Shown: positions 8,810-56,434 of the stretch, piece by piece | Layout: each line of letters opens with the position of its first letter | Position numbering within the stretch: position 1 is the stretch's first letter | From: a virus | Virus record (IMG/VR): IMGVR_UViG_3300013233_000235 | Span: 62,001 to 126,000 of that record | Length of the DNA: 64,000 nt | Direction: 5' to 3' (one strand) | Notes under the pieces: model-generated | Databases searched by the model: none | The model's input: the letters and a program-made list of their open reading frames with translations, nothing else | Told to the model about the DNA's origin: nothing | Position numbers and translations under genes: made by a program

Positions 8810-10732
8810 ATGGCTAAGATTAATGATAACACCCAGCACGGCAAGCCTGTAGAAGAAGAAGTACAGTTCGATGAAGATTCGGGCCACCATGGTCGTGGAC
8901 AACGTGGTGATGCCCCTGAGTTTGATCCCATGGACTGGGGTATGGCGATCCCGGGATCTGGGATTGAGGAGGGCGAGATGCTGGAGTTTACAAAGACCCT
9001 AGCGCTCACCGCTGATCAAAGCAGCAAACAGATGGCGTCCAGTCTGGGGGCGCCGGTGGACCTGAAGATCATCACTATCATGAGCAGCGATATCGCATGC
9101 CCAATGGTTGTGCTGGTGAATATGGAAGGTGGTCGCAAGTGCTGCTACGTCTACCTCATCGAGGCGATGTTGTCAACAACGCTGGCCCCTGAAATCATCC
9201 CACCCCGCGCAGGCACGATGAACCGTGAGGTGATCATTGACATGCCCACCATGCGGGTGTTTGATGCGGCAGCCATTGAGGTGGTGACCGAGTACGTAAT
9301 GGCTGAAACTAAGTGCGCTGAGCACGAGGTGGACATCCGTGGTTGGTGTGTCACCAAGAGTACCCCCACTTGGTCCAGCAAAGGTGTAGCTGGTAACTAC
9401 TTCTCGTTCGGCAGTCATGCCGTATTGGATCCTCTGCGCTCCAAGGCCAACCGAATTGGCTTGCGCAACTTAGTGCATAAGGGTATGACTCTTAAGAACA
9501 CCATCCGGTTAACACCCGGTAAGAGCGATCACATGTCCCTCACCGGTGAAGCACTCCGGGGTGATTTCGTGTGCACCCTGGAACTGTCCACCAAGCGTGA
9601 CAGTTCACGCCGTCGTGAAGTGACTATGGTCAACGACCGCAACCGCTCTAGACACCTTGTAACCACCACCGGTTACGTGGACTTTGCGCCTATCAGCGCT
9701 GTAGGTGCCACGCACAGTCGTGGGCAACAAGCTGGCCAGACACAGCCAGGGCACATTCCAGTGTTGGCGCTGACACAGGTCACGGGGCAATCAAAAGCAC
9801 GTCACCGCGACAGTGAAGATATCAACACCCCACTGTTAGGGCTCTGGTCTTTAGCACCCCTTATCTACCGTCGTGGATGGGCAGCTGTATTCAAGACCAC
9901 CCCTGGTAGTGAGTATGTGGCTGGGGACCTTGGTCTCCTGGCTTGCTCCCATGATCCATGGGGTGTTGGTGGTTCAGCCCTTGGTCGCGCGAACGTGGAT
10001 GCTAGCCCCATGGCCGTGGACAGTGATGATACATTCACCGTGAGCACCATGGCAAACCTGTGGACAACTGAGGGGGTCGTCATCGCCCTGGACATTGAGC
10101 GTGGCGGGCCTATCTACAACCTCCAGGTCTTTGAGAAAGCGGCGAACGGCGATACTGACGCTAACGGTCTCATCATCGCAGCAGCGGATGGTTTGACCGG
10201 CAATCGCTTCAGCCGCATGTGGGCGGATGTAAACAGCGACAATCCTGACGCCATGGTGATGCGTGAGCAGACCACCCAGATTCATCTGGGCAACTGCGTA
10301 AGCTCCAAAAACTCAGGCCTGGCTGACATCCGGGCACTGGATCACTTGACTGTTGCTGAAACAGACCCATCTGATCCGCAGTGGATTCGAAGTGTATGCG
10401 CGGGCACCCACCCAGGTGCTGATTCAAATGCCGTCATGGATCGCCGTAACGCGATTGAGAAGGTGTTGAATAACCCTGTAATTACGGGGCTGGCCGTGCG
10501 GGTATTTTACCGCGCACTGTTCATCAACACGTTCTACGCGGCGATGGACAAAGCAAGAGTGCGTGCGGAGATCATCTCTCCAATCGTTGACAACAACGTA
10601 TCTAACAACGGTATGGATGCGGACATGGTTACTGGCCTTGGCGGCAGTAACCCATTTGCCAGCAATGCCTCAGCTGGTGGGGCCGAGATGATCGGCTCAG
10701 CTTCACAGTGGCAACCCATTTACCGCCGATAG
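8810..10732 (+). CDS. chmA: Chimallin-like phage nuclear shell protein
   Basis: 640 residues with AAGGAG before the ATG, its own early-type promoter and a strong terminator, the arrangement of a very highly expressed single gene. Chimallin (ChmA) self-assembles into the proteinaceous shell that encloses replicating jumbo-phage DNA and excludes host nucleases; known members are of similar length. I identify it by size, isolated transcription unit and order: as in phiKZ (gp54 then gp55), the next gene is the beta-prime N-terminal RNA polymerase subunit. The first 50 residues are acidic, Gly/His-rich and probably disordered; the C-terminal 40 are Gly/Ala/Asn-rich. No membrane segment or enzyme motif is visible. 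Major capsid protein is the main alternative, but no prohead-type context is nearby. Confidence 0.75.
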   Translation: MAKINDNTQHGKPVEEEVQFDEDSGHHGRGQRGDAPEFDPMDWGMAIPGSGIEEGEMLEFTKTLALTADQSSKQMASSLGAPVDLKIITIMSSDIACPMVVLVNMEGGRKCCYVYLIEAMLSTTLAPEIIPPRAGTMNREVIIDMPTMRVFDAAAIEVVTEYVMAETKCAEHEVDIRGWCVTKSTPTWSSKGVAGNYFSFGSHAVLDPLRSKANRIGLRNLVHKGMTLKNTIRLTPGKSDHMSLTGEALRGDFVCTLELSTKRDSSRRREVTMVNDRNRSRHLVTTTGYVDFAPISAVGATHSRGQQAGQTQPGHIPVLALTQVTGQSKARHRDSEDINTPLLGLWSLAPLIYRRGWAAVFKTTPGSEYVAGDLGLLACSHDPWGVGGSALGRANVDASPMAVDSDDTFTVSTMANLWTTEGVVIALDIERGGPIYNLQVFEKAANGDTDANGLIIAAADGLTGNRFSRMWADVNSDNPDAMVMREQTTQIHLGNCVSSKNSGLADIRALDHLTVAETDPSDPQWIRSVCAGTHPGADSNAVMDRRNAIEKVLNNPVITGLAVRVFYRALFINTFYAAMDKARVRAEIISPIVDNNVSNNGMDADMVTGLGGSNPFASNASAGGAEMIGSASQWQPIYRR

Positions 10733-25417: not shown

Positions 25418-26953
25418 ATGACTATACGTATCGACGTATATAGCCACGGCTTTGATGTTACGCTACAAAGTGCCGAAGAGAGGGCTTGTTTACTGGGGTA
25501 TGCTGCGAGACTCGCGGTATTTGATGACGTGTGGGACCCCGCACTTCGGAGAAAGGTCCGGAAGGTCAAAGAGGTGTACTCGACAGCAAACAAAGCGCGT
25601 ACAACTTTTGGATTCCCCATAGCTGAACTACCAACGGTCACCAACTACCTACGGGCAAATGGGCAGACGGTCGAGCAACCCATCATCCACACCCCGACCC
25701 TGGGTGCACCAATCCAACTGCCGATAAAGGACGGCATGGCCCCGAAAGCCGAGCAGATAGAGATCGTTGATTTCTTAGCAGTACCCGATAAAACTATTAG
25801 GGTACTGCCTTTGAAAACTGGCGGTGGTAAAACGGCATCATCCATCTTTGCCATCGGTAAGCTGTCAGTGCGCACCGTGCTAACCATGAGCAACCAGCAT
25901 ATCGTGACATGGCTTCGGGAGTTCGATAAGTTCACAGATATCGACACATCCCGGATATACATGGCTAATAGCATGGTTGCACTTGAGAAGCTGGTAGTGC
26001 TAGCAAAAGATGGCGAGATGGAATACGACATAGTGACCATAAGCATCTCGATCCTGCGCAACTATATAACGGCTTATTATGCGGAAGGCAAGACTCTAGA
26101 CGGCGTGTCTCCACGTGAGCTGTATGGTATTCTGGGGATCGGGTGCGTGGTTACCGATGAATCACATGAGAACTGTCACGCGGTTACGGTTCAGGCTATA
26201 ACGATGCATGTGCCAAGGTGTATCTACCTATCCGCGACTTTGATCGATGATGCCCCACATGTGATGGAACAGTATAGAAAGCTGTTCCCCATGTCGGAGC
26301 GGTACGCGGGGGGCGGACACAACGATCACGCCATCGTTAACTCGGTGTTCTACTCCCATGCGTTGACAACTGGTATGAAGTATAAGGGGACCCGTGGGTA
26401 TAGCCACATCCTTTATGAAGACTGGTTGATGGAAGATCCCACACGGTTGCGTAACTATGTGAAGATGCTATTGGTATTTCTTGAGGACGGTTATCTCAAA
26501 GACTACCAAGAAAATCAGGTCGCACTCTTCTACTTTGCTAGGGTCGCCATGTGTGATATTGTGTGTGATATGATGCGCGGCCTTATAACAGAAAGACTGC
26601 TGGAAGAGCATGGTCACGTCTTGCGCATAAACGCCTACACTGGTGTAACGGATGAGAGTGTATTGTATTCAACCGATATCATACTCACCACAGTGGGATC
26701 ATGTGGCACCGGCAAGGATATACCCAATCTAGTAGCAGCCTTCGCAGGCATCGCTATCAAGTCGTCCAAGAAGAATCTACAGATGTTAGGCAGGCTTAGG
26801 AAACCAGCTAACTACCCGGGGTTGTTACCCAAGTACTACTACTTTAATTGTTTGGCAATACCCGAACACATGAAGTACGCTAGAGAGAAACGAACACTAT
26901 TCATAGGCGAATGCGCAGAGCAGCACGTCATCCGAACGAACATACATGTATAG
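25418..26953 (+). CDS. Superfamily 2 DNA/RNA helicase
   Basis: 511 residues with GAGGAGGG before the ATG. Helicase motifs in order: Walker A KTGGGKT at 133-139, motif II DESH at 247-250 (DEAH type), motif III SAT at 272-274, and motif VI QMLGRLR at 455-461. The overall size and layout resemble UvsW-like phage helicases that unwind branched DNA and recombination intermediates. The N-terminal 120 residues are a separate domain. In phiKZ a helicase lies at the same place, right after the polymerase block, as I recall. ATP-driven remodelling of DNA or RNA in the phage nucleus is the likely role. Confidence 0.85.
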   Translation: MTIRIDVYSHGFDVTLQSAEERACLLGYAARLAVFDDVWDPALRRKVRKVKEVYSTANKARTTFGFPIAELPTVTNYLRANGQTVEQPIIHTPTLGAPIQLPIKDGMAPKAEQIEIVDFLAVPDKTIRVLPLKTGGGKTASSIFAIGKLSVRTVLTMSNQHIVTWLREFDKFTDIDTSRIYMANSMVALEKLVVLAKDGEMEYDIVTISISILRNYITAYYAEGKTLDGVSPRELYGILGIGCVVTDESHENCHAVTVQAITMHVPRCIYLSATLIDDAPHVMEQYRKLFPMSERYAGGGHNDHAIVNSVFYSHALTTGMKYKGTRGYSHILYEDWLMEDPTRLRNYVKMLLVFLEDGYLKDYQENQVALFYFARVAMCDIVCDMMRGLITERLLEEHGHVLRINAYTGVTDESVLYSTDIILTTVGSCGTGKDIPNLVAAFAGIAIKSSKKNLQMLGRLRKPANYPGLLPKYYYFNCLAIPEHMKYAREKRTLFIGECAEQHVIRTNIHV

Positions 26954-26961
26954 GAAAACAT

Positions 26962-28044
26962 ATGAGAATCGAGTACTGGGATTTACAGACATTCATCCAA
27001 GACATCGTAAACGCTGTACCCGAAGAAGGGGCGATGTATAAACAGCCAATCGCTATTGAACATACCACCAACATTGAAACGTTGGATGAGGCCATGGCGG
27101 TGGCGGATATAATCCGACTGCATAAGGCCGACTTCCACTTCACCGTAACCATGCGGTCCGCTATCACAGTGCTGGATCTACTGGCATACACCTTCGTGGA
27201 TAAAGACAACAGATGCATCTCCCCAGGCATCTCTGTAACAATGTCTGTGGATACACCCGTGTACGGCATCGTCAATGGTAGAGCGGCAGCGACGATTCTA
27301 GCCCACCATGAGAGCCGTGTGGAGAGACTTATCCAGTTGGTATGCCTAGGGTATGATATTAAGCCAAACGTCCTTACGATGGACATAGGGGCCAACAAAC
27401 GGATGTCATCGGATGACCTCATCGCGGCCGGCAACATCACCAACACACTGTACACCGGACCCCTGTATGCCAAGATGCGCCGTAATGCACACATCGACCG
27501 CGTTTATGGGGAGCGGTTTGGGGATATTACCATGTATGGTAACCGTAGTAATGTGATCAACTATGTGATAACAGACCGCGTTAGAACAGCCGACACCGTG
27601 GCACTCCTAGACATGTTACACGACCTCGGGGAATCACGCGCACCACGTCGGGAGGTCATCATCTGGGTCAGCACAACGGCTATGGATGATCACGTTGCAG
27701 GTGTTACGCTAGCCACCTGTATGAAGAACGAGCCATCACGATTTAGCACCATCTGTGTCGGGGGGGCTAGAACTGGCGGTGCATTGGTATTCTGCGCTGG
27801 TAACTATACGGACCGCAACGTTGCCAGTAACGCCGTAGTCACACTGGATGCGTATAGTGCAGAGGGTCTGGGTGTATCGGTGAACGGTATGTCCGATGTG
27901 TTATTAGGTAGCCAGCAATGGACCCGCGCGTGGAAGGACGCGGTCAATCTCCCACCAAATATTATCCACGACATTCATAAAGAAACCATGCATGTTAAAC
28001 CGAAGGAGTTAGTTGGCATGGGCTTGGCGGACGGATACATTTAA
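26962..28044 (+). CDS. ClpP/crotonase-fold-like protein lacking the catalytic triad
   Basis: 360 residues from ATG 26962 (AGGAAA upstream); an in-frame ATG at 26911 lies inside the helicase gene. The C-terminal half resembles ClpP-type sequences: GGARTGGALVFCAG lies where ClpP has its G-x-A-A-S-M-G-A elbow, followed by NAVVTLDAY and a closing helix KPKELVGMGLADGYI like the usual EA...GLVDEI. The nucleophilic Ser and the His are not at the expected places. The N-terminal half shows a similar rhythm ending SSDDLIAAGNI, suggesting a duplicated fold. I infer a structural or scaffold relative of ClpP rather than a protease. Confidence in the gene is high, in the fold low. Confidence 0.7.
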   Translation: MRIEYWDLQTFIQDIVNAVPEEGAMYKQPIAIEHTTNIETLDEAMAVADIIRLHKADFHFTVTMRSAITVLDLLAYTFVDKDNRCISPGISVTMSVDTPVYGIVNGRAAATILAHHESRVERLIQLVCLGYDIKPNVLTMDIGANKRMSSDDLIAAGNITNTLYTGPLYAKMRRNAHIDRVYGERFGDITMYGNRSNVINYVITDRVRTADTVALLDMLHDLGESRAPRREVIIWVSTTAMDDHVAGVTLATCMKNEPSRFSTICVGGARTGGALVFCAGNYTDRNVASNAVVTLDAYSAEGLGVSVNGMSDVLLGSQQWTRAWKDAVNLPPNIIHDIHKETMHVKPKELVGMGLADGYI

Positions 28045-28049
28045 AGCAT

Positions 28050-28090
28050 AAACAGATCCCCGGTTTTTAGCCGGGGATCTGTTTATATGT
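28050..28090. terminator. Bidirectional terminator
   Basis: A perfect 14-bp stem (AAACAGATCCCCGG with CCGGGGATCTGTTT) around a seven-base loop separates convergent genes; a T-run follows on the plus strand. The stop codon of the minus-strand gene lies in the stem. Confidence 0.85.
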
Positions 28091-28571
28091 TTTTTTTAGC
28101 CTTAGCGGCCGCCTTTTCAAGATCAGTTAATACATTATCAACCTCAGCACTTTCATTAGCAGCGGACATAGTACATATGCGGTGCAACTCTTTGAAAGCA
28201 TATGGGGTCAAAGACATCAACTCCAGGATGGACATGCCACATTTATCTGGCATTTTAGCTTCCACCATTTTCTGTAGCACATTTACAGCAGGGCTGTGTT
28301 TAGCCATTTGCGATACGCGATTATGTGTCATAGTGGGCACAGGGTTAGTCAGTGTCGGACCTTCGTGTAACCCGAGATGTGTGTCTATCCTATCCATCGA
28401 TAGAATCTTGTTGGCGACCCCATTGTAGCATGGGGGTGCCTTCAACATATCCTCGATGATGGCGACGTGCACCTCATCTTCTATGACCCATCCAGCGGTC
28501 AGCTCAGGGACAACGAGTACATCTATTTCGTCGCCAGTCGACGCTTTGTGGTACGAAGTGCCCGTCTCCAT
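28083..28571 (-). CDS. Frameshift extension ORF of the gp26-like gene (gp51-like position)
   Basis: 162 residues if initiated at the ATG at 28571, but that ATG has no Shine-Dalgarno and lies inside the upstream gene. The frame is the -1 frame of the upstream gene and is open back to a T TTT TTC heptamer at 28589-28583, so I think it is made mainly as the C-terminal part of a 685-residue fusion. The protein is helical, with SILELMSLTPYAFKELHRI and a Lys-rich end. In T4 the tail hub assembly proteins gp26 and gp51 are neighbouring genes, which makes a tail-assembly role plausible; this is inference. Ends at the bidirectional terminator. Confidence 0.7.
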   Translation of the reverse strand: METGTSYHKASTGDEIDVLVVPELTAGWVIEDEVHVAIIEDMLKAPPCYNGVANKILSMDRIDTHLGLHEGPTLTNPVPTMTHNRVSQMAKHSPAVNVLQKMVEAKMPDKCGMSILELMSLTPYAFKELHRICTMSAANESAEVDNVLTDLEKAAAKAKKNI

Positions 28572-30139
28572 ACCGTCGTACCGAAAAAATAACCTAACAC
28601 ATTGATAGGTAACATACCAGTGGCCACATCAGCACCCTCAGCTTGCTGCTTACCACAGCTTGGGCAGGCATAATCGAATACCCCACACGCGGAGATCTTA
28701 CAAGACATTTTGTACTCGTTGATTGCCTTTTCGATTACATCTTGGGCATCCATGTCGCCAGACATGTCGGACAATACACGGGCGATAGTATCGCTATCCT
28801 CAATCACCCGAATATCATCGGCGGTTGGATCGTGGTACTTGATCTTATCTACCCAGCATGAGTTCTTACGCAGGGCCGTACTGGATTCAAATTCACGGAT
28901 GTAGCTAACACGTGCCTTAACACGGCTATCTTCATCCCCATCCCCATCCATAGCCATGACCTTGTCAGTCATTTCAGAGATACGGGCGATCCACTCTAAA
29001 CCTGCGTTGATATACTCGCTGGTTTTAGGAGTCTTAATAACAAGTGTTACAGTAGACTCACCGAATTCAGCAACGACCTCGGTGGTATCGGCCATAAGTG
29101 CCTGCATCTTTTCAATTTCTTCCACGGTATGCGTGCCGCTGCCAGCGCCCATGAAGTCGGATACCTCGGATGGGATCCGGGATGCGTCGTATACGTGGGT
29201 CTTAGCAAAGTTGATCAGGGAATCCCAATGGAAGGTTTGATCAGCTAAATCAACCTTGAGGGGCACCTCGTAGCTGCATGCGTCCGTATCCTCATGTTTG
29301 CATCGGTGAGCAATGGGGTACCCTGATGGGTATATGGCTTCGAGAGCGCCTGACATAAGGGCTTCGTGGTCTCGGATGTCGAGTAGGTTGAGCATGATGT
29401 CGATCTCACCCTTAACCCAACCCTTGATGTTGGTCTTCTCAACATGGCTCAAAATAAACCCGATGATGATGCTTTGAATAGCACTATCTGAGCCACTGAT
29501 GTGGTAACCATTGGTATTGTAACCAGTGTCTAGGCGGCGGGCCTGTAACTGCACTGCCAGCGAGATGACGTCGCTCTGGCTGAACGCACCAATCTGCACA
29601 GTAAAACATGATGCCACCAAAGGTATGGTTTTCGCTGTACCCAGGCCTAGTGACTTTCTAATGCTATCCAGAGCGGTATTACCGGTCACGATGGTCTGAT
29701 CAGTCTTAGAGGCACCAGCATTGCGGATGTACGCGACGCCATTGGAGCCTGTAACTTTCTGACAGTACTTTGCTTCAGGGCGGTTAAAAAATTCCGCGTA
29801 CTCACCGGCACTATACGCGTTGTAATACATCGCACCGAGTGCGCTACCGTGGGCCCTAATCTTGGATGAACTACCGACTTTATCAGTATCATCCCAGACG
29901 CTTTCAGCATACTTGAGATTGAGGGCATCCAATTCATCTTTCGCTACACCACTCATAGGGAGGTTTAGCGGGTAGTACCGCAGCTTGGCATTGTCCACCT
30001 CAGTGACTGATTTTACCGCATCGGCAACGTCATCGAATCTGGTGCTGGATACATCGACGGCAGTCTGGGAGACCCCGTCTGACACAGGGGTGGCTTCTGG
30101 TTCGTTATTACCTTGGGGCTTATCTTGTTCAGTAGTCAT
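28523..30139 (-). CDS. Probable tail/baseplate hub assembly protein, T4 gp26-like C-terminus
   Basis: 538 residues, weak GGAAA before the ATG. The N-terminal 30 residues are low-complexity. The C-terminus has a Cys cluster (CKISACGVFDYACPSCGKQ) followed by a hydrophobic end (LPINVLGYFF), the same plan as the zinc-type C-x2-C and final GLQSFFL of T4 gp26, though this protein is more than twice as long. Right after it the frame continues with a basic tail, while a slippery heptamer allows a switch to the -1 frame. Two products are therefore expected: 538 residues, and about 685 by frameshift. Tail assembly chaperones of long-tailed phages classically use this device. Confidence 0.7.
   Translation of the reverse strand: MTTEQDKPQGNNEPEATPVSDGVSQTAVDVSSTRFDDVADAVKSVTEVDNAKLRYYPLNLPMSGVAKDELDALNLKYAESVWDDTDKVGSSSKIRAHGSALGAMYYNAYSAGEYAEFFNRPEAKYCQKVTGSNGVAYIRNAGASKTDQTIVTGNTALDSIRKSLGLGTAKTIPLVASCFTVQIGAFSQSDVISLAVQLQARRLDTGYNTNGYHISGSDSAIQSIIIGFILSHVEKTNIKGWVKGEIDIMLNLLDIRDHEALMSGALEAIYPSGYPIAHRCKHEDTDACSYEVPLKVDLADQTFHWDSLINFAKTHVYDASRIPSEVSDFMGAGSGTHTVEEIEKMQALMADTTEVVAEFGESTVTLVIKTPKTSEYINAGLEWIARISEMTDKVMAMDGDGDEDSRVKARVSYIREFESSTALRKNSCWVDKIKYHDPTADDIRVIEDSDTIARVLSDMSGDMDAQDVIEKAINEYKMSCKISACGVFDYACPSCGKQQAEGADVATGMLPINVLGYFFGTTVWRRALRTTKRRLATK
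28583..28589 (-). promoter_or_regulatory. Probable -1 ribosomal frameshift site
   Basis: On the minus strand the zero frame reads TAT TTT TTC GGT, giving the heptamer T TTT TTC of the X-XXY-YYZ type. After a -1 slip the frame reads on through CGG TAC GAC GGT ATG into the 28083-28571 ORF without a stop. The downstream ORF has no ribosome site of its own. No stimulator structure was established. Confidence 0.65.
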
Positions 30140-30189: not shown

Positions 30190-30657
30190 TTACTCTGCGG
30201 GGGCGATGGTTGCCACGGGTTCTACAGCGGTCTCTTCAGCACTATCCAGATCTTGGAAAGCCGCCATTAAATCACCCAGCACCACTACGGCGTTGGCATT
30301 AATGGTATCAAACACTTCTGTAATCTGTGAATGGAGATCGTGGTATGTGAAAATGTGTGCAGATTTTACACAGCCCGTGTAATTTGGAATGGCGAGTTTG
30401 ATAGCACGTAGGCGCTTAGATTGCTCTGTTAGAGAAACCACGGCGGCGTGTAGTGCGACAACCCGTCCATCGGTCATGATGCTGCTCAGCGATTCCTGGC
30501 GGTTAAACACCGAAAGTCCAGTAGCGGTTCGGGTGATCATACCGTCCATCATGAGCCAGTAGTTACGCAGTTCTTTCCAAGTCATGTGGGTAACACTTTT
30601 TTCGGACTTACGCATAGTTTTCTTTCGCTTATTGTTGGGCTTTTTATTCTTCTTCAC
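30190..30657 (-). CDS. Hypothetical protein with Lys/Arg-rich N-terminus
   Basis: 155 residues from a GTG at 30657, chosen because TTGGAG lies six bases upstream; the TTG further out overlaps that site. The first 20 residues are strongly basic (KKNKKPNNKRKKTMRKSEK), the rest helical with an acidic C-terminus. Upstream of the gp26-like gene on the same strand and probably co-transcribed with it, so perhaps involved in tail assembly. No family recognised. Confidence 0.6.
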   Translation of the reverse strand: MKKNKKPNNKRKKTMRKSEKSVTHMTWKELRNYWLMMDGMITRTATGLSVFNRQESLSSIMTDGRVVALHAAVVSLTEQSKRLRAIKLAIPNYTGCVKSAHIFTYHDLHSQITEVFDTINANAVVVLGDLMAAFQDLDSAEETAVEPVATIAPAE

Positions 30658-30760
30658 AGCAATCTCCAATGAGTATGATAGTCAACATATACAGAAATAC
30701 ATATTTTTTAATGACGGGGTCGGCAATCCTATGAACTCTAACCGCATGAGGGCGATACCG

Positions 30761-48383: not shown

Positions 48384-49694
48384 ATGAGCTATTTGAAGAA
48401 CTACATGGGCGGCGGCGTCGCTACCCAATTTGAAGAACACGACGTGACCGGCATGCAAAGCCTCGAATTGGCATGTGAAATGGCCGATCTCGAAGATGCA
48501 GACATGCTGCACAACGATATTGAAGATGCCATCCGCATGGCTGGTGAAACTGAAGCCGGTCTACAAGCATTATTGCCAGACATGTACAATCCAAACAACA
48601 GCCGCATGAACACTGCCGATAAAGCATACATCGCCGCTGGTGTAAACTTCCATCTGATGAACGCCGGTATTACCGATGATCCAGGTATGCAGGGTGTTGC
48701 CGATGCATGGAAAGCTGTTAAAGACTGGGCTATCAAATTGTGGCGCTCCATTGTAGCTTTGTATGACCGTGCCGTAGCCGCTGTAACCAAATGGCTCGAA
48801 AAGATGTTCGGCCCTATCACCAAACTCAAAGCTCGCGCAGAAGCGTTGAAAACTAAAGCTGATGAATCTGATGGTACCCCCAAAGAAGCCAATTTGAAAA
48901 TCGGTGCTCAGCGCAAATATCTGGATACAGCCAAAGCGGCATCCAGTAGCATGAATCTGACGATGCTCGGTGGTGCCAAAAGTGGTGCCGAAGATTTCTT
49001 CAAAAAACATATGCCCAACATTTCTGAAGCTCTAACCGAAGGTTTGTCGGATGCAGCGGCATTGATCGGCGGTGACAAAGATGCTGAAGAAATCAAAACG
49101 GCTGTTAACAATGTGGCCACCACTTACAATGCGGCGATGATTGTGTTAGCAGATAAAGATGTGGCTAAAAATGATTTGCCCGAAGATCTATCTGCCGGCA
49201 AATCCAAGGTCACAGCCAATGACCCTATCATGGGTAATGGTCGCTTCTATAGCTCAGTTCCAACCAAAGATGGTGATAAAGATCAGCGCATCGGCACCAT
49301 GTCCTTCCATGGCCCCACTGGTAAAGCCTTCAAAGACATGAAAGATGAAAACCTGAAAGCATTGACTTCAGGCGAGATCTCTACCCAGTGCGATGGTATT
49401 ATGGAAATGTGCGATGTCCTACTTGACACCCGCATTGTCAAAGACTTGACCACTCTGTCGAAAGACCTCAAAAGTCAAGGCAACGACATCAGCAAAGCTA
49501 TGGCCAAAGATAGCGACAAAAATGCCAAGATCAAAGGTCAAGTCAAAAGCATGATGACTGATATTGCTAAGGGCGGTGCCAACCTGCGTAACCCAGCTAA
49601 AGGCTTCATTGCCCACAGCACTACCACCCTGTCTGCTGTCTACAGTTTCTGCTCAAGTAGCTTCGATAACCTCGAAGTAAAAGGCGATTCCTAA
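48384..49694 (+). CDS. Inner-body-like virion protein, paralogue 1
   Basis: 436 residues, weak GGGAAAG before the ATG. Acidic N-terminal region with three G-hydrophobic-Q motifs (GMQ 23-25, GLQ 59-61, GMQ 101-103), the last directly followed by a Trp-containing amphipathic helix (DAWKAVKDWAIKLWRSIVA). The rest is a Lys/Ala/Asp-rich helical domain. Codons differ from neighbouring genes (AAA, GAA and GGT preferred), as expected for strong expression. By analogy with phiKZ inner-body proteins it would be packed in the capsid, trimmed by the prohead protease and ejected with the DNA; this is inference from architecture and position. Confidence 0.65.
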   Translation: MSYLKNYMGGGVATQFEEHDVTGMQSLELACEMADLEDADMLHNDIEDAIRMAGETEAGLQALLPDMYNPNNSRMNTADKAYIAAGVNFHLMNAGITDDPGMQGVADAWKAVKDWAIKLWRSIVALYDRAVAAVTKWLEKMFGPITKLKARAEALKTKADESDGTPKEANLKIGAQRKYLDTAKAASSSMNLTMLGGAKSGAEDFFKKHMPNISEALTEGLSDAAALIGGDKDAEEIKTAVNNVATTYNAAMIVLADKDVAKNDLPEDLSAGKSKVTANDPIMGNGRFYSSVPTKDGDKDQRIGTMSFHGPTGKAFKDMKDENLKALTSGEISTQCDGIMEMCDVLLDTRIVKDLTTLSKDLKSQGNDISKAMAKDSDKNAKIKGQVKSMMTDIAKGGANLRNPAKGFIAHSTTTLSAVYSFCSSSFDNLEVKGDS

Positions 49695-49723
49695 GCAACA
49701 TCTAACCCACCATTCAATTTGAG

Positions 49724-49745
49724 GCAGTTGGTAACAACCGACTGC
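49724..49745 (+). other. Intergenic hairpin
   Basis: GCAGTTGGT-AACA-ACCGACTGC pairs over nine bases (one U-G) just before the ribosome site of the gene at 49761. No T-run; possibly a translation-regulating or processing stem. Confidence 0.4.
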
Positions 49746-49760
49746 TCTCCGGAGCTTAAT

Positions 49761-51008
49761 ATGAACCAATTACGTAACGCATTGGGTATGTCTTCCCATG
49801 CAGGATCTTCAGCCAGTGCAGATGATTTGTACGAACAAGCTGAACAGCAAGCCACCTATCGTGAGCTGCGCAAAATGAACAACGATTGCAATAGCTTAGA
49901 AGCAGCCCATATTGGCATGCAGTCTTTGCAACGCATCGGTGGTAAGGGTAATACCGCTGCATTGATTGCATCTGCGAACAGCATGTTGCAAGCAATGGGT
50001 ATTGATCCCGAAGAAAACTCTCTACCTGGTATGCAGAGCTTTGGCCCATCTGACACCACCGCTGGTATGCAGGGTATTGGTGCCTGGTTGAAACGCATCT
50101 GGGATGCGATTGTAAAGTTCTTTAAGGACATTTACAAGAAAGTGGCTGACTGGTTTAACGGTGTTGACAAAGAAGCCAAGAAGATCAAAGGTGCTAACGC
50201 TAAACTGCGCACCTTCCTGGAAGGCTTGGCGGATGACGCCGAATCCAAAAATGATAAGGTCAGCATGAGCAAGTCTTATGCATACCTGATCAGCAATGGC
50301 AAGATCGACCACGATGATAAAAAAATCCATGTTAAAAACATCGAAGCGGCTATCAAATCGTACCACACCGACACCGTGATCAAGTTCTACAATGACTACG
50401 CCGATAAAGTGGTCGAAGCATTGGAGAAAGATGGTGTCGAAAAGGCTGCCACTGATACTGCCACAGGTGCGGCTAAAACAGATCTCGCCACCGCAATGAA
50501 AACTGAGTTTAAGATTGAGGGTACCAACACCACAGTCCCAATGATCGCAAACGGTACGATCAAGTTTAAGGACGCGGGTGCAGCGGCGACCGAGGGGGAG
50601 ACCGCCCCCACCATGGCGGCAGTTGTGTATGATATCGGTACACGCGCTGATGACACCACTGGTCGAATCGATGTAAATGTCGATAGCCCTGAGAACATCA
50701 TCGAAGTCCTTGATACTTCTGACACATTGTGCGATCACTCCATGATCGGTGTTGGCAAGGTTGACAAGGAAAAGAAAGACCTTGAAAAACAGGGTGCACG
50801 CATCATCAAAGCTATGGATGCTTTCAACGCCAAAGTGGCAGATGATACATCCAAACACTCCAACATCAATAAAGATGTCATCACCGAATTTATGAAGCTG
50901 GCTCGCCAGACTCGTACTGACGGTTCCGTGACTCTGATCCGCGATGTATTGAAGACTGCTAAAACTCTGTCTTCTATGGCTGGTAAACTTGGTTCAGAGT
51001 ACCGTTAA
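49761..51008 (+). CDS. Inner-body-like virion protein, paralogue 2
   Basis: 415 residues from ATG 49761 with CCGGAG upstream; the in-frame start at 49719 is upstream of the hairpin. Begins MNQLRNALGM, matching the MNALRAALGM opening of the next paralogues. Three GMQ motifs (52-54, 90-92, 102-104), the last followed by the amphipathic helix GIGAWLKRIWDAIVKFFKDI. Lys-rich helical remainder. Codon choice again resembles a strongly expressed gene. A processed, ejected internal head protein is the working assumption. Confidence 0.65.
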   Translation: MNQLRNALGMSSHAGSSASADDLYEQAEQQATYRELRKMNNDCNSLEAAHIGMQSLQRIGGKGNTAALIASANSMLQAMGIDPEENSLPGMQSFGPSDTTAGMQGIGAWLKRIWDAIVKFFKDIYKKVADWFNGVDKEAKKIKGANAKLRTFLEGLADDAESKNDKVSMSKSYAYLISNGKIDHDDKKIHVKNIEAAIKSYHTDTVIKFYNDYADKVVEALEKDGVEKAATDTATGAAKTDLATAMKTEFKIEGTNTTVPMIANGTIKFKDAGAAATEGETAPTMAAVVYDIGTRADDTTGRIDVNVDSPENIIEVLDTSDTLCDHSMIGVGKVDKEKKDLEKQGARIIKAMDAFNAKVADDTSKHSNINKDVITEFMKLARQTRTDGSVTLIRDVLKTAKTLSSMAGKLGSEYR

Positions 51009-51014
51009 TAGCGA

Positions 51015-51095
51015 TCTCTAACTAACTAAAAATAGCCGGGGCTTCGGCCCCGGCTGTTATAAAGGAAAAACTATGAATGCATTAAGAGCAGCGCT
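51015..51095 (+). repeat. 81-bp direct repeat, copy 1
   Basis: Identical over 81 bases to 52360-52440. It contains a TTCG hairpin (AGCCGGGGC-TTCG-GCCCCGGCT at 51034-51055), the ribosome site AAAGGAAAA and the first codons of the following gene. In copy 2 the left end is also the coding end of the preceding paralogue. Confidence 0.9.
51034..51055 (+). terminator. TTCG hairpin between inner-body genes
   Basis: A perfect 9-bp GC stem with a TTCG loop, followed by TGTTAT rather than a T-run. Partial termination or mRNA end protection is likely. The identical stem recurs at 52379-52400. Confidence 0.55.
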
Positions 51096-52374
51096 TGGAA
51101 TGAGTAACACCGGTGATGGGTATACCCCACCGGATACTCGTGATGCCGGCGATATCCTTGCGGATTCAGTAGCATGTGGTTTCCAGTCATTAGACAGTAT
51201 GTTTACCCAGTTGGGTGCCTACCATACCACCGTAGAAGACATCGAGTCAACAGCGGGCTTACAGTGGCTGTACGATGATGGTGTGACGGATGGTGTACAG
51301 TTTATTGGAAAGGCCATCAAAGCGGTCTGGAAGGCCATTGTGGATACCATTAAATGGATCGGTAAACAGATGAAACGATTCTGGAAGTGGGTGTTCGGTG
51401 ATGCGAAGACCGAGGGTAATGGCAAGAAGGGATCCAAGTACGAGAAGGGTGGGCCTAAGAAGATGACCCCTGGGTATGCCCGCATATTGGTAAAGGTTGA
51501 TGGGTGGAAAACCTTAGCCGCTGCTGCCGCCAATGACGATTCCTCTCTAAATGAGTTGTTCACAGCGGTCCATGGGTACTCTAAACTAGCGCTACCGGAT
51601 ACAGAGCACGCAGCCGCCAAAGAAAAACTAAAGAACAACCTGGGATACTTCACATCAGATGGGTCGTTTACCACCACGGTGCCACCAGACCATAAACCAT
51701 TGAAAGCTTTTCATAGAGCCATGCTCGCCGAGGCATTTGATGTAGCGGGGGCTGGTGGATTTACGTTCGCCAATAACCCCCCCAGCCATCGGGTTATTAA
51801 AATTAACCCGCGGGGGTACGAGCATATTAACACGGTTGTAAATACAGCCGACGACGATACGGATACATTACAAGCACTTGTGCGCGAGTTCGTGTTATCA
51901 ATCGTGGGGTATTTTGAGTCAGTAGGTGGTGCAGTAAACGACAGAACCGATGCTGGCATGCATATACAGTACGAGGGTGGCGGCTCCAAATACCACATTG
52001 TGACCATCAATGGTGGCGTCGGTGTAGTAATCGGCTGGACGCCGCCCTCTGGTGGTGGGGCCATAGAAACCATGCCTACCACCGTCCCACCCATGCTGAA
52101 TAACAGGCTCATAGGGGACGATGTCGAAAAGGAATATGAGAAAGAGATCACACACTACCGGGATAAATTGGCCGAATGCCAGGCGCTTGGTGATAAAACC
52201 ATAAAGGTGGTCGAGGGGTGGGAAAACAATAAGGAAGCGGCTGCCGAAATAGCCAAGAGAACCGCGGAATCGCTTAAGGCAGATACCGACGCCATGGTAA
52301 AACATATTAAAAGTATGAGCACTGCTTTGACTGCTCAGGCAATGTTATTGGCTGTTGCCTCTCTAACTAACTAA
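51073..52374 (+). CDS. Inner-body-like virion protein, paralogue 3
   Basis: 433 residues, AAAGGAAAA before the ATG. Motifs GFQ 36-38, GLQ 62-64 and GVQ 74-76, the last abutting the cationic helix FIGKAIKAVWKAIVDTIKW. A central module (SKLALPDTEHAAAKEKLKNN) is shared with paralogues 4 and 5, and the C-terminus ends LLAVASLTN like theirs (LLAIGALTN, LLAIAALTN). The N-terminal 60 codons are nearly identical to those of the gene at 53744, not to the adjacent one, so the array is mosaic. The role is inferred as for the other members. Confidence 0.65.
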   Translation: MNALRAALGMSNTGDGYTPPDTRDAGDILADSVACGFQSLDSMFTQLGAYHTTVEDIESTAGLQWLYDDGVTDGVQFIGKAIKAVWKAIVDTIKWIGKQMKRFWKWVFGDAKTEGNGKKGSKYEKGGPKKMTPGYARILVKVDGWKTLAAAAANDDSSLNELFTAVHGYSKLALPDTEHAAAKEKLKNNLGYFTSDGSFTTTVPPDHKPLKAFHRAMLAEAFDVAGAGGFTFANNPPSHRVIKINPRGYEHINTVVNTADDDTDTLQALVREFVLSIVGYFESVGGAVNDRTDAGMHIQYEGGGSKYHIVTINGGVGVVIGWTPPSGGGAIETMPTTVPPMLNNRLIGDDVEKEYEKEITHYRDKLAECQALGDKTIKVVEGWENNKEAAAEIAKRTAESLKADTDAMVKHIKSMSTALTAQAMLLAVASLTN

Positions 52375-52440
52375 AAATAGCCGGGGCTTCGGCCCCGGCT
52401 GTTATAAAGGAAAAACTATGAATGCATTAAGAGCAGCGCT
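52360..52440 (+). repeat. 81-bp direct repeat, copy 2
   Basis: Exact copy of 51015-51095, spaced 1345 bases from it. It includes the last codons and stop of paralogue 3, the TTCG hairpin, the ribosome site and the first codons of paralogue 4. Confidence 0.9.
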
Positions 52441-53722
52441 GGGCACAGACACCGGCGAGACAGACCCCACGCCTAGACGTGCGGATGGGGCGGGCCTTGA
52501 GATATCGATTGTGGTAGGGCTACAGTCCGTTGAGAGCATGGTGAACCAAATCGCGGCATACTCTCAGGCTCAAGCTGGTATGGACGATTCCCCGGGGTTA
52601 CAGGCGCTATATGGTGACGGTGATACAGATGGCATGCAGTTTATAGGCAAGGCCCTCAAGTCCATCTGGGATGCTATCTTTCGGGTACTCAAATGGGTTG
52701 GGCAGCAGATGCGCCGATTCTGGAAGTGGGTGTTCGGCAGTGGGGGTGCGGATGGTAATGATAAGAAGGGCTCTAGGTACGAGAAGAGCGGGCCTAAGAA
52801 GCTACCCAAGCCTGTCGCCGAGTTATTGGTGATTACCGATAAGTGGCGGGTATTGGCCGAAGAGGCTGCTGGTGGCAATGATGAGTCACTTGACGAGTTG
52901 TTTAAAGGCACCCATGGGTTTTCTAAACTATCTCTGCCTGATACAGAGCATGCCGCTGCTAAAGAAAAACTAAAGAACAACTTGGAGTATTTTAAAGCAG
53001 GGGCAGAGTTCACCGTGGGGGTCCCACCCGATCATGCCGAGCTATTAGCACACCATGAGTACTTGTTAAAAAATGGTGAGGATGTGGCAAGTGGTTCCGG
53101 ACTGGCGTATAAGAATGTGATCATCGGTGCCGCGCACACCCAGGTTATACTTAAAAACTACTGGGATATGACGGATAAGATAAACTCTATAAAAAACACC
53201 AAGGCATCCCTAAAAGAGTATGTGGATGGGGTGGTGGAAGAAGTGCGTAAGAGTGTGGTCCCACATATGGTGGATAACGCCCCACTCCCGGCTGATGACG
53301 CCAAGATTACCACGTACAGATATACCAATGGTGGGGCCACGGTTATATTGCACACCGACAAAGGTGGGGTGGGTGTACGGATTGGCTGGGAAGAACCGCA
53401 CGGTGAGGGGGTTTTCACAACGATGCCCACCACGGTAGGCCCAATCCAGACCGATGGTATATACAGCGATTTAGAAAAAGCCACACATCACGCATTTGTA
53501 ACCACGATGGATATGGCTAAATACGCCAAGGAAAATGTGGATAAGATCTTAACCACCCTTAAGTCCTGGGACGTGAACAAAGAAGCCGGCGCAATGATGG
53601 CCAAACATATATCTGCGGGCCTAAAGGAAGATGCCAAGATTTTTATGGCGATAGTGCCCACCACCACCCATCAGATAAAGGCTTTGGCTATCTTGCTAGC
53701 TATTGGGGCTTTAACCAACTGA
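52418..53722 (+). CDS. Inner-body-like virion protein, paralogue 4
   Basis: 434 residues, AAAGGAAAA before the ATG inside the 81-bp repeat. Motifs GLQ 34-36, GLQ 60-62 and GMQ 72-74, then FIGKALKSIWDAIFRVLKW. Carries the shared SKLSLPDTEHAAAKEKLKNN module and the LLAIGALTN end. The region between about residues 210 and 400 is unlike the neighbours, apart from a GGVGVRIGW segment like the GVGVVIGW of paralogue 3. Confidence 0.65.
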   Translation: MNALRAALGTDTGETDPTPRRADGAGLEISIVVGLQSVESMVNQIAAYSQAQAGMDDSPGLQALYGDGDTDGMQFIGKALKSIWDAIFRVLKWVGQQMRRFWKWVFGSGGADGNDKKGSRYEKSGPKKLPKPVAELLVITDKWRVLAEEAAGGNDESLDELFKGTHGFSKLSLPDTEHAAAKEKLKNNLEYFKAGAEFTVGVPPDHAELLAHHEYLLKNGEDVASGSGLAYKNVIIGAAHTQVILKNYWDMTDKINSIKNTKASLKEYVDGVVEEVRKSVVPHMVDNAPLPADDAKITTYRYTNGGATVILHTDKGGVGVRIGWEEPHGEGVFTTMPTTVGPIQTDGIYSDLEKATHHAFVTTMDMAKYAKENVDKILTTLKSWDVNKEAGAMMAKHISAGLKEDAKIFMAIVPTTTHQIKALAILLAIGALTN

Positions 53723-53743
53723 GTAACTACACGAAGGAAAGCT

Positions 53744-55054
53744 ATGAATGCATTAAGAGCAGCGCTTGGAATGAGTAACACCGGTGGTGGGTATACCCCA
53801 CCGGATACCCGCAATACTGGTGACATCCTTACAGATTCAGTAGCATGTGGTTTTCAGTCATTAGACAGTATGTTTACCCAGTTGGGTGCTTACCACGATA
53901 CGGCGGCCGACATCGAGTCAATCCCGGGCCTGCAATGGCTGTACGATAGTGGTGTAACCGACGGCGTACAGTTCATTGGAACTGCCATCAAAGCGGTCTG
54001 GAAGGCGATTACCGGCATTATTAAGTGGGTCGGTAAACAAATGAAACGATTCTGGAAGTGGGTGTTCGGTGGGAAGACCGCTGGCGGTAACGGTACGGCG
54101 GGATCCAAGTTCGAGAAAGAAGGTCCTAAAAAGGTGCAGTATGATATCGCAAAGGTGTATGTTGAGACAGACAAGTGGAAAGTCTTAGCAGAAGAAGCTA
54201 TTGATGGTAAAGATGCATCCTTGGACGAGTTGTTCACAGCGGTCCATGGGTACTCTAAACTATCACTGCCTGATACTGAGCATGCCACGGCTAAAGAAAA
54301 ACTAAAGAACAACTTGGAATACTTTAAGGATGGTGCCAAGTACACCGTAAGCATCCCAGCGGACCACGCTGTGCTAAAACAGTACCACAGCACGCTGTTA
54401 GCAAGTGGGATAGATGTTGATCCCGATGTGGACACCGCAGGCTTCACATACGTGGGCAGGGGGCCTACACCCCGGGTACTAGCCATTGTATCAAAGGCCG
54501 ATGCTAACTACTTAACAGACCTTGCTAGCATAGACGGTAAGGAGGAGGAGCTACGGGTCATTGGTAATACACTGCTTGAGGCAGTCGAGGCCGAGCTAAC
54601 AGCTAAGGGGTATAAGCGGAAAGGCGTTCGCGCTGGCATGGGGGACTATACCCACCCCGCCGGTGGGGTTGAGTACCGCACCTACAACACAACCAACCTC
54701 ATTGGATTACGTGTACAGTGGTCAGAAAACGATGACAACGCGGTGCTTGAATTACCACTCACCACTGGTACCATGGGTCCGGGGTATCTATATGGTACCG
54801 ATGCTGTGAAGAAAATCATTGCTGGGTTTGATACCCTTAAAGAGTCTATAGACCATGTGGGGAAACTAGCAGAAAAGGCCGTCGGCCACATCAAGGGGTG
54901 GAAGGAATCGGAGAAGCTAGGTACAAATATCGCTAAGTTGGTTATGGACAAGGTTAAGGCTGATAATTTGGCTGCGACCAACTATGTGAAAACAGCGACA
55001 GTTCAGATCAAGGCGGTAGCAGTCCTTCTGGCCATTGCGGCTTTAACCAACTGA
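53744..55054 (+). CDS. Inner-body-like virion protein, paralogue 5
   Basis: 436 residues, GAAGGAAAG before the ATG. Its first 60 residues are nearly those of paralogue 3 (MNALRAALGMSNTGGGYTPP), with GFQ 36-38, GLQ 62-64 and GVQ 74-76, then FIGTAIKAVWKAITGIIKW. The shared SKLSLPDTEHATAKEKLKNN module and LLAIAALTN end are present. Residues 225-400 are divergent. It looks like a recombinant or partly converted copy of paralogue 3. Confidence 0.65.
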   Translation: MNALRAALGMSNTGGGYTPPDTRNTGDILTDSVACGFQSLDSMFTQLGAYHDTAADIESIPGLQWLYDSGVTDGVQFIGTAIKAVWKAITGIIKWVGKQMKRFWKWVFGGKTAGGNGTAGSKFEKEGPKKVQYDIAKVYVETDKWKVLAEEAIDGKDASLDELFTAVHGYSKLSLPDTEHATAKEKLKNNLEYFKDGAKYTVSIPADHAVLKQYHSTLLASGIDVDPDVDTAGFTYVGRGPTPRVLAIVSKADANYLTDLASIDGKEEELRVIGNTLLEAVEAELTAKGYKRKGVRAGMGDYTHPAGGVEYRTYNTTNLIGLRVQWSENDDNAVLELPLTTGTMGPGYLYGTDAVKKIIAGFDTLKESIDHVGKLAEKAVGHIKGWKESEKLGTNIAKLVMDKVKADNLAATNYVKTATVQIKAVAVLLAIAALTN

Positions 55055-55096
55055 TAAATTACCCCGGGGTAATCCCACGGGGCGATAAGGACAACT

Positions 55097-56434
55097 ATGA
55101 ATGCATTAAGAGCAGCATTAGCAGACAACCCGATCCCAGTACACCCCGTGTACAATGGTGGCGAAGACTTCACCTGCCCATCCGTGGGTATACAGTCTAT
55201 ATCAGACATGCTTGACCAGATATCAGAGCTGGGCGAGTCCCGCGAATATATAAAAGACTGCGCTGGATTACAAACACTGTATTCTGACGGTGATACAGAT
55301 GGCATGCAGTTTATTGGAAAGGCCATCAAAGCTGTATGGGAGGCAATTGTAGCGGTGATTAGCTGGGTTGGTAAACAGTTTAAGAGATTCTTTGACTGGC
55401 TAACTGGCGGCAGTGGCGGCGGTAAAGGAGCTAAGGGTAGTAGCATCACGATATCAGTATGGCGTAATAACGGGCCACCCGATATCCCCATCAAACTCAG
55501 TGCCGCATATGTGCGCATGGAGAAGATAGTCCTCCTGGCCATAGCCGTAAAAGAAGACAGGGATGACAAGGATTCCCTAAACAAGTTATATGCCGAGCTG
55601 CGGATGTCGTCACCAAAGGCCCCATCCGATAGCGGTGACGAGAAAAACTGGCATGCCAACCTGCTAAGTAACATTGATGACCTAGCTGATGCCTACGACG
55701 GCATCACGTGCCCATATGTTGGGGAGTTTGCCGATGGTACCACCCTGTACAACGCACTATCTGCGGAGGGGGCCACTCTGGGTGACGTGGTACCTGAAAC
55801 TGAAGATATGATGTATTTCCCCTACGACGGCTTGGCGGACTCGTTAAGGGAATCCGTATTCAAGATAATAAAGGAGATCGACGATCTAGACGAGAGTGAT
55901 TATGATGAAGGTGTGAAGTTAGTGAAGGCCCTGCGCATAGCCCTCGATGATATGTATCTTAGCAAGGATGGTACTACTCCTATGGTTAAAGAGGACCACA
56001 TAGATTTCCGCAGGATCAGTCTCGGAAACAACGAGACCTACATACGCATAACCACGACGTCCGATATGACACTCAGGGTTGCCACCACACACGGTGGTCG
56101 TGGTAAACTGACACCTAAGAAATCCACCGAAGTAACATTCGACGCTAGATTCCTTTCACCACCAGCCGTCAAGGAATACAAAAAAACAGTGGATGCCGCA
56201 CTGAAAAAATATGAAGAATCCCATAAACTTATACGGGGTATGAGTGTCGATAAATGGGCTAGGGAGAACCAAGATGCCCCGACCGCCAAAGCCAAACTGT
56301 CTGCCACAAATGTGGCTATCAAATTGTACCAGGGTGATATGGATAACCTCAAGCATGAGGTTAAGCGAGCAATGGTGGTGGCCGAGCTAGCTATAAAACT
56401 GATTGCCGGCAAGATGTTGTACACCAAGGGGTAG
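55097..56434 (+). CDS. Inner-body-like virion protein, paralogue 6
   Basis: 445 residues, AAGGACAA before the ATG. Opening MNALRAALAD, motifs GIQ 31-33, GLQ 57-59 and GMQ 69-71, then FIGKAIKAVWEAIVAVISW and a Gly/Ser linker (GGSGGGKGAKGSS). It lacks the PDTEHA module and the LTN ending of paralogues 3-5, so only the N-terminal module is shared. Last of the contiguous array, followed by an imperfect hairpin. Confidence 0.65.
   Translation: MNALRAALADNPIPVHPVYNGGEDFTCPSVGIQSISDMLDQISELGESREYIKDCAGLQTLYSDGDTDGMQFIGKAIKAVWEAIVAVISWVGKQFKRFFDWLTGGSGGGKGAKGSSITISVWRNNGPPDIPIKLSAAYVRMEKIVLLAIAVKEDRDDKDSLNKLYAELRMSSPKAPSDSGDEKNWHANLLSNIDDLADAYDGITCPYVGEFADGTTLYNALSAEGATLGDVVPETEDMMYFPYDGLADSLRESVFKIIKEIDDLDESDYDEGVKLVKALRIALDDMYLSKDGTTPMVKEDHIDFRRISLGNNETYIRITTTSDMTLRVATTHGGRGKLTPKKSTEVTFDARFLSPPAVKEYKKTVDAALKKYEESHKLIRGMSVDKWARENQDAPTAKAKLSATNVAIKLYQGDMDNLKHEVKRAMVVAELAIKLIAGKMLYTKG

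Follow-up and report, generated by a model that had tools for sequence, protein, structure and literature searches.

The window analysed here, a stretch of 64,000 nucleotides, comes from an IMG/VR phage record of 204 kb. Its minus strand carries ORF1, a homologue of phiKZ gp77, and a second ORF that overlaps the 3' end of ORF1 (Table 1). Counted from its ATG, this downstream ORF (28083-28571, minus strand) has 162 aa; counted from the slippery heptamer, it has 166 aa. The window phage has multisubunit RNA polymerase genes and encodes chimallin, indicating that it is phiKZ-like and probably a nucleus-forming jumbo phage. A megablast search against phages gave no match.

Table 1. Features of the window, numbered from its first nucleotide
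Feature	Positions	Strand	Basis
Chimallin-type nuclear-shell protein, phrog_4795	8810-10732	+	
Perfect 12-bp inverted repeat with A-rich loop, ACAGATCCCCGG-CTAAAAA-CCGGGGATCTGT	28052-28082	.	Sequence
-1 extension RYDGMETG...KKNI, 166 aa, phrog_12109 homologue	28083-28583	-	
ORF1, zero-frame product, 538 aa, phiKZ gp77 homologue (phrog_4585)	28523-30139	-	ORF list, homology
Zero-frame tail 3' of the slip site, GTTVWRRALRTTKRRLATK, then stop; apparently dual-coded with the -1 frame	28523-28582	-	
Candidate hairpin GGTACGA...TCGTACC, 7-bp outer stem	28550-28582	-	z about -1.3 to -2.5 by segment folded
Slippery heptamer T TTT TTC, predicted -1 ribosomal frameshift site	28583-28589	-	In phase; position conserved in all relatives
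CPSC (Cys492/Cys495), probable zinc-ribbon knuckle near the ORF1 C-terminus	28655-28666	-	Near-invariant columns in two alignments
Gene upstream of ORF1, 159 aa, at the phiKZ gp78 position	30190-30669	-	ORF list, gene order of relatives

The neighbours of ORF1 are gp78-like, RNA polymerase, helicase and Clp-like genes, and the tape-measure gene is not among them. The gene order gp78-gp77 is likewise found in relatives, and the upstream gene is probably co-transcribed with ORF1. The inverted repeat lies directly 3' of the -1 ORF stop, between convergent genes, and is likely a terminator shared by both. The gene convergent with the frameshift unit (26911-28044, plus strand) gave a Clp-protease-like match (PF00574), and the Vibrio relatives L001, L018 and L019 have separate Clp protease genes at this position. 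Elsewhere in the window, six ORFs of about 435 aa each stand in tandem (48384-56434, plus strand). The third to fifth are mutually 43-47% identical, the sixth is 27-31% identical to those, and the first weakly matches internal head proteins; we read this array as the expansion of one family, of either ejected or head proteins.

Zero-frame reading over the heptamer gives TAT TTT TTC, which fits X XXY YYZ in the right phase. A slip by -1 would yield ...GYFF|RYDGMETG, with GYFFRYDGMETG as the predicted junction sequence, and a fusion of 519 + 166 = 685 aa. Upstream of the heptamer, the -1 frame meets a stop at 15 codons, with no ATG, GTG or TTG in between. The ATG at 28571, 4 codons past the slip site, is not preceded by a Shine-Dalgarno-like purine run at normal spacing. 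An earlier note on this DNA had claimed the heptamer in correct phase, a -1 ORF open from it, a nearby ATG without Shine-Dalgarno and a fusion of about 685 residues beside a 538-residue product, and all of these were borne out. TTTTTTC occurs 7 times in the window, compared with 4.75 ± 2.0 times in shuffles. By itself, the heptamer is not above chance; the conservation of the homologous position in every relative examined is.

The -1 frame in phiKZ-like relatives

The relatives comprised 26 isolate records and 53 IMG/VR loci, 79 in total; together with the window, there were 80 sequences, some of them near-duplicates, and 27 at the isolate level. The isolate records span many phiKZ-like genera (phiKZ, 201phi2-1, Noxifer, Goslar, SPN3US, RAY, Moabite, FBKp24, BONAISHI, a Halocynthia phage and others), and the ORF1 homologues include phiKZ gp77, 201phi2-1 gp136 and SPN3US gp39. 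The gp77 homologue reached the same FF/LF site in 27/27 isolate-level and 53/53 IMG/VR sequences. In relatives, this site is 8-44 codons ahead of the zero-frame stop, and the -1 frame stays open for 149-178 aa past it. When ORF1 was compared with distant phages by tblastn, the alignments did not extend past residue 519-523, where the heptamer encodes FF.

The slip position was found in all 79 relatives, and a canonical heptamer in 56 of the 80 sequences (TTTTTTT in 33, TTTTTTC in 22 and TTTTTTG in 1). Non-canonical sites were A/G-TTTTTT or A/G-TTTTTC in 17 sequences and CTT TTT in 7 sequences of one marine clade; the relaxed versions belong to two clades. The earlier note had held that relatives lacking the heptamer, or having a stop between it and the ORF, would speak against the frameshift. 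Relatives of the first kind do exist (24/80), but all 80 sequences retain the join to the -1 ORF; no relative of the second kind was found, the -1 frame being open in all 79.

From the slip site up to the first ATG, GTG or TTG codon, the -1 frame of the 27 isolate-level sequences had no stop in 1,080 codons, and the +1 frame over the same stretches had 83 stops in 1,076 codons. At 3/64 per codon, and with relatedness ignored, the chance of such a stop-free frame is approximately 10^-22. In the segment from the zero-frame stop to the first ATG, substitutions at the first, second and third -1 codon positions numbered 186, 145 and 477, respectively, counted over overlapping and hence not independent sequence pairs. 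Many members have conserved -1 residues (FFYPS..., F-F-x-P and HVxxxxFG) ahead of their first ATG. The lack of stops, the third-position bias and these conserved residues indicate that the -1 frame is translated although it has no start codon to itself, so that the frame must change at the slip site or close to it. Moreover, the first ATG of phiKZ-like relatives is 18-157 codons past the slip site, a distance that speaks against independent initiation across the family; at 4 codons, the window is unusual.

The zero-frame tails of relatives have 8-44 aa, are often FFTLxxQK-like and are alike between distant lineages, so that the overlap appears to be dual-coded. A tblastn search with the -1 extension alone gave no match, the extension being too diverged. 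From comparison of the sequences, we strongly infer a -1 frameshift in the phiKZ gp77 family. The jumbo-phage version that the earlier note had said would be a notable variant is a trait of the whole gp77 family and not peculiar to the window phage.

No pseudoknot or hairpin common to the phiKZ-like family was found. The candidate hairpin of the window directly follows the heptamer (spacer 0 nt), and it is doubtful as a stimulator because it is too close. Clade-specific stems with 5-6-nt spacers were found in L066-L072 (z about -2 to -3) and in several of L079-L093. L066-L072 form a marine phiKZ-like clade in which the heptamer has been lost (CTT TTT), the -1 join has been kept and a strong stem lies 5 nt downstream. 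This clade is a natural experiment on frameshift signals.

Likeness of the two parts to gp26 and gp51

As the earlier note had described, ORF1 ends in a Cys cluster and a hydrophobic segment: CPSC is near-invariant in alignments, and FF is at the heptamer. A second conserved Cys pair is C280/C288. The AlphaFold2 model of ORF1, built with 39 sequences, had a pLDDT of 73.5 and a pTM of 0.75, with residues ~1-110 predicted to be disordered and the gp26-like region at ~169-521. Foldseek with this model returned the phiKZ-like family first and then T4-like hub proteins: a 'baseplate hub subunit' of Rhizobium phage AF3 (prob 1.00, E 4.7e-3, TM by target 0.53) and a T4-like 'baseplate hub assembly protein' (prob 0.97, TM by target 0.55), both matches covering just part of the larger query. 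Nothing was returned from the PDB.

The C-terminus of T4 gp26 reads ...CPECGKTHAHVIRGLKEFFELL, and its CPEC is placed relative to FF as the CPSC of ORF1 is. By hhalign, columns 191-519 of the ORF1 family aligned with columns 10-239 of gp26; this match was weak (p 0.0024, prob 12%), and it was collinear from gp26 residue ~10 to the end, including the Cys pairs and FF. PF12322 scored above its cut-off in none of 21 gp77 proteins, with T4, S-SCSM1 and Kevin positive, and the phiKZ-like genomes searched held no PF12322 match except a sub-threshold one elsewhere in FLC6. These fold and profile comparisons support a remote likeness of ORF1 to gp26 in predicted fold and layout. ORF1 is not filed in PF12322, because the profile alignment is weak and the Pfam match is lacking. 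The gp26-like assignment of the earlier note therefore holds for the fold search, the C-terminal layout and the collinear but weak profile alignment, and fails for Pfam PF12322.

Residues 100-168 of the -1 extension are confidently predicted to form a helical domain, whose helices follow the same pattern as those in the tail of T4 gp51. Profile comparison of this domain with the gp51 tail was suggestive (p 0.049) and weaker than that of ORF1 with gp26. Foldseek matches of the -1 extension were limited to small unnamed phage ORFs.

In marine T4-like phages, all 80 gp26 loci (L094-L173) had T TTT TTC and a -1 frame leading into gp51. The marine gp26 ends with TTT TTC plus one or two codons, and the -1 product, FFR[IVL][GA]M.HMDLENYFRLNFALMQYHKYSLTEIENM.PWERDIYV..., has 60-66 aa where a contig end does not cut it. 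Approximately 10 nt downstream lies a partly covarying hairpin, whose inner pairs are formed in 79-96% of the sequences; over all nine proposed pairs, the figure is 64%, compared with 33-49% in shifted registers. Vibrio phage D482 also has T TTT TTC at the end of gp26, followed in the -1 frame by gp51 (CPKCG...EDFF|R), and a scan for further vibriophage gp26 loci found none. S-SCSM1 was considered as a +1 case and dropped; because of an 11-nt insertion, it stands apart from the other marine phages. In the Ackermannviridae loci L030 (2438-3360) and L175, a gp26-like gene is followed by a gp51-tail-like ORF in the -1 frame, which is open from just before a GTT TTC ATC stop. The canonical heptamer is absent there, and a relaxed or one-tRNA slip site is possible.

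Cyanophage and marine vibriophage gp51 have been described as being without the first ~200 residues, with no mention of frameshifting (Sullivan et al., PMC3037559). Cyanophage gp51 probably represents the frameshifted tail of gp26 rather than a truncated gene, and the ~200 absent residues would be supplied by the frameshift from gp26.

T4 itself is an exception in its own group, since the marine T4-like phages have the predicted frameshift. The end of its gene 26 has no slip site but TTC TTT GAG and an immediate -1 stop. Genes 26 and 51 (L028, 3803-5229) are on opposite strands and are paralogues, PF12322 matching both; gene 51 alone has an extra C-terminal domain, and the last ~50 residues of gp51 match the marine -1 product in an alignment that begins at FF. 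As a gp26 paralogue that carries a T-like tail, gp51 is the counterpart of the whole frameshift fusion, so that T4 seems to encode the short form (gp26) and the long form (gp51) of one system in two genes. The statement in the earlier note that T4 keeps gp26 and gp51 as separate genes is thus right as to two genes and no slip site, but gp51 does not correspond simply to the downstream part.

The proposed expression unit and its alternatives

We consider it highly probable that ORF1 and the next ORF are one expression unit, which by -1 frameshifting gives a lambda G/GT-like chaperone pair for tail or hub assembly. For lambda, a review describes how gpG and its frameshift-extended form, gpGT, load the tape-measure and tail-tube proteins (PMC5009743). 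For T4, PMC3004832 gives both gp26 and gp51 as hub-assembly chaperones, of which gp51 does not occur in the virion. For slippage in vivo, product ratio, binding partners and chaperone role, we infer the following scheme. Most ribosomes would read ORF1 to its own stop and produce the 538-aa protein, and some would move back by one base at T TTT TTC, as they decode the Phe-Phe near the C-terminus, then read 166 more codons and produce the fusion. The shared large domain, remotely T4 gp26-like and with its probable C-terminal zinc ribbon, may bind the tape-measure or hub substrate, and the frameshifted C-terminal helical 'T' domain may recruit tail-tube or hub partners. The ratio of short to long chaperone would be set by slippage.

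A real frameshift might also serve another purpose, gp77 being a structural component, of the hub or otherwise, or a factor for host takeover beside the RNA polymerase genes. The neighbourhood of RNA polymerase subunit, helicase and Clp-like genes without a tape measure fits this reading, as do the failure of PF12322 and the labels 'baseplate protein' and 'baseplate hub' given to the gp77 homologue in the AH06 and MJ359 records. However, the fold matches are to gp26/gp51-type hub-assembly proteins, and genuine gp26/gp51 of marine T4-like phages carry the same predicted frameshift. In addition, the 201phi2-1 record notes a mass-spectrometry identification for the neighbour gp138 and none for gp136, and three papers on the SPN3US virion do not name gp39/gp40 in their main text; this silence is weak negative evidence, as expected for non-virion chaperones. 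We therefore regard a role other than chaperone as unlikely.

Separate translation of two proteins, in which re-initiation or coupling past the ORF1 stop would start the second ORF at an internal ATG and the openness of the -1 frame upstream is incidental, appears very improbable. Annotators have put starts at internal ATGs (BONAISHI ORF88c, SPN3US_0040 and phiKZ 076.4), and an ATG follows the slip site closely in the window and, usually at 3 or 6 codons, in marine T4-like loci. Nevertheless, the window ATG has no Shine-Dalgarno sequence, the distant first ATG of the relatives often lies beyond conserved -1 residues, a stop-free frame with third-position bias precedes any ATG, and the second domain of T4 is fused to a gp26-like domain. 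Slightly less probable still is slippage of RNA polymerase on the T run instead of the ribosome: runs of 8-9 T's in 18/80 sequences would suit it, but 29/80 have just 5-6 (the window 6), the codon phase and FF position are what is kept, and some clades have stems at ribosomal spacing.

As to the origin of the ribosomal frameshift unit, we lean towards a frameshifted gp26-gp51-type chaperone that was ancestral to phiKZ-like and T4-like contractile-tailed phages, with T4 and its close relatives using gene duplication instead (gp26 short, gp51 long). The two hub chaperones of T4 would then be G and GT, that is, one system.

Significance and comparison with known systems

Frameshifted tail-assembly chaperones are a known kind. 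In the open-access literature searched (subscription journals may differ), there was no report of a phiKZ-like frameshift, in a zinc-ribbon protein of 490-705 residues, or of a marine gp26/gp51 frameshift. The PRFect paper (PMC10885494) makes no mention of gp26, baseplate or jumbo phages. With the present results, phiKZ gp77, a hypothetical gene in every phiKZ-like relative examined, gains a probable function and a correct gene model, its second part having been mis-annotated as a separate gene, and the 'truncated' gp51 of marine T4-like phages would be explained by frameshifting. T4 hub assembly, long obscure, would be linked to the lambda G/GT mechanism, which is directly testable in T4, phiKZ and cyanophages.

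Among the phiKZ-like phages, the families of phiKZ gp77, 201phi2-1 gp136 and SPN3US gp39 (phrog_4585 and phrog_12109) have homologues of both parts and an identical slip position. Their records differ from the arrangement proposed here in listing hypothetical proteins only, with the second part as a separate short gene or a partial one (phiKZ 076.4, 80 aa).

For tail-assembly chaperone frameshifts, PMC5009743 cites Xu, Hendrix and Duda (2004). Like lambda gpG/gpGT, the phiKZ-like unit would give a short abundant product and a longer -1 product, with a heptamer near the 3' end (here by sequence only) and a small helical second domain. Unlike in lambda, the zero-frame protein is far larger and has a probable zinc ribbon, the site is TTTTTTC/T and not lambda-type, and the gene does not adjoin the tape-measure gene; no sequence similarity to the lambda proteins was shown.

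The gp26 and gp51 of T4 and marine phages share with the phiKZ-like proteins the CPxC...FF C-terminal layout, a collinear but weak profile alignment, a fold match and a helical tail domain past FF. The phiKZ-like ORF1 differs from gp26 in being 2.5 times longer and unmatched by PF12322, and its -1 extension has 149-178 aa, compared with 60-66 in marine T4-like phages. T4 differs in its two paralogous genes on opposite strands without a slip site, whereas marine T4-like gp26-gp51 agrees with the window in T TTT TTC, in the -1 join and in the junction FFR.
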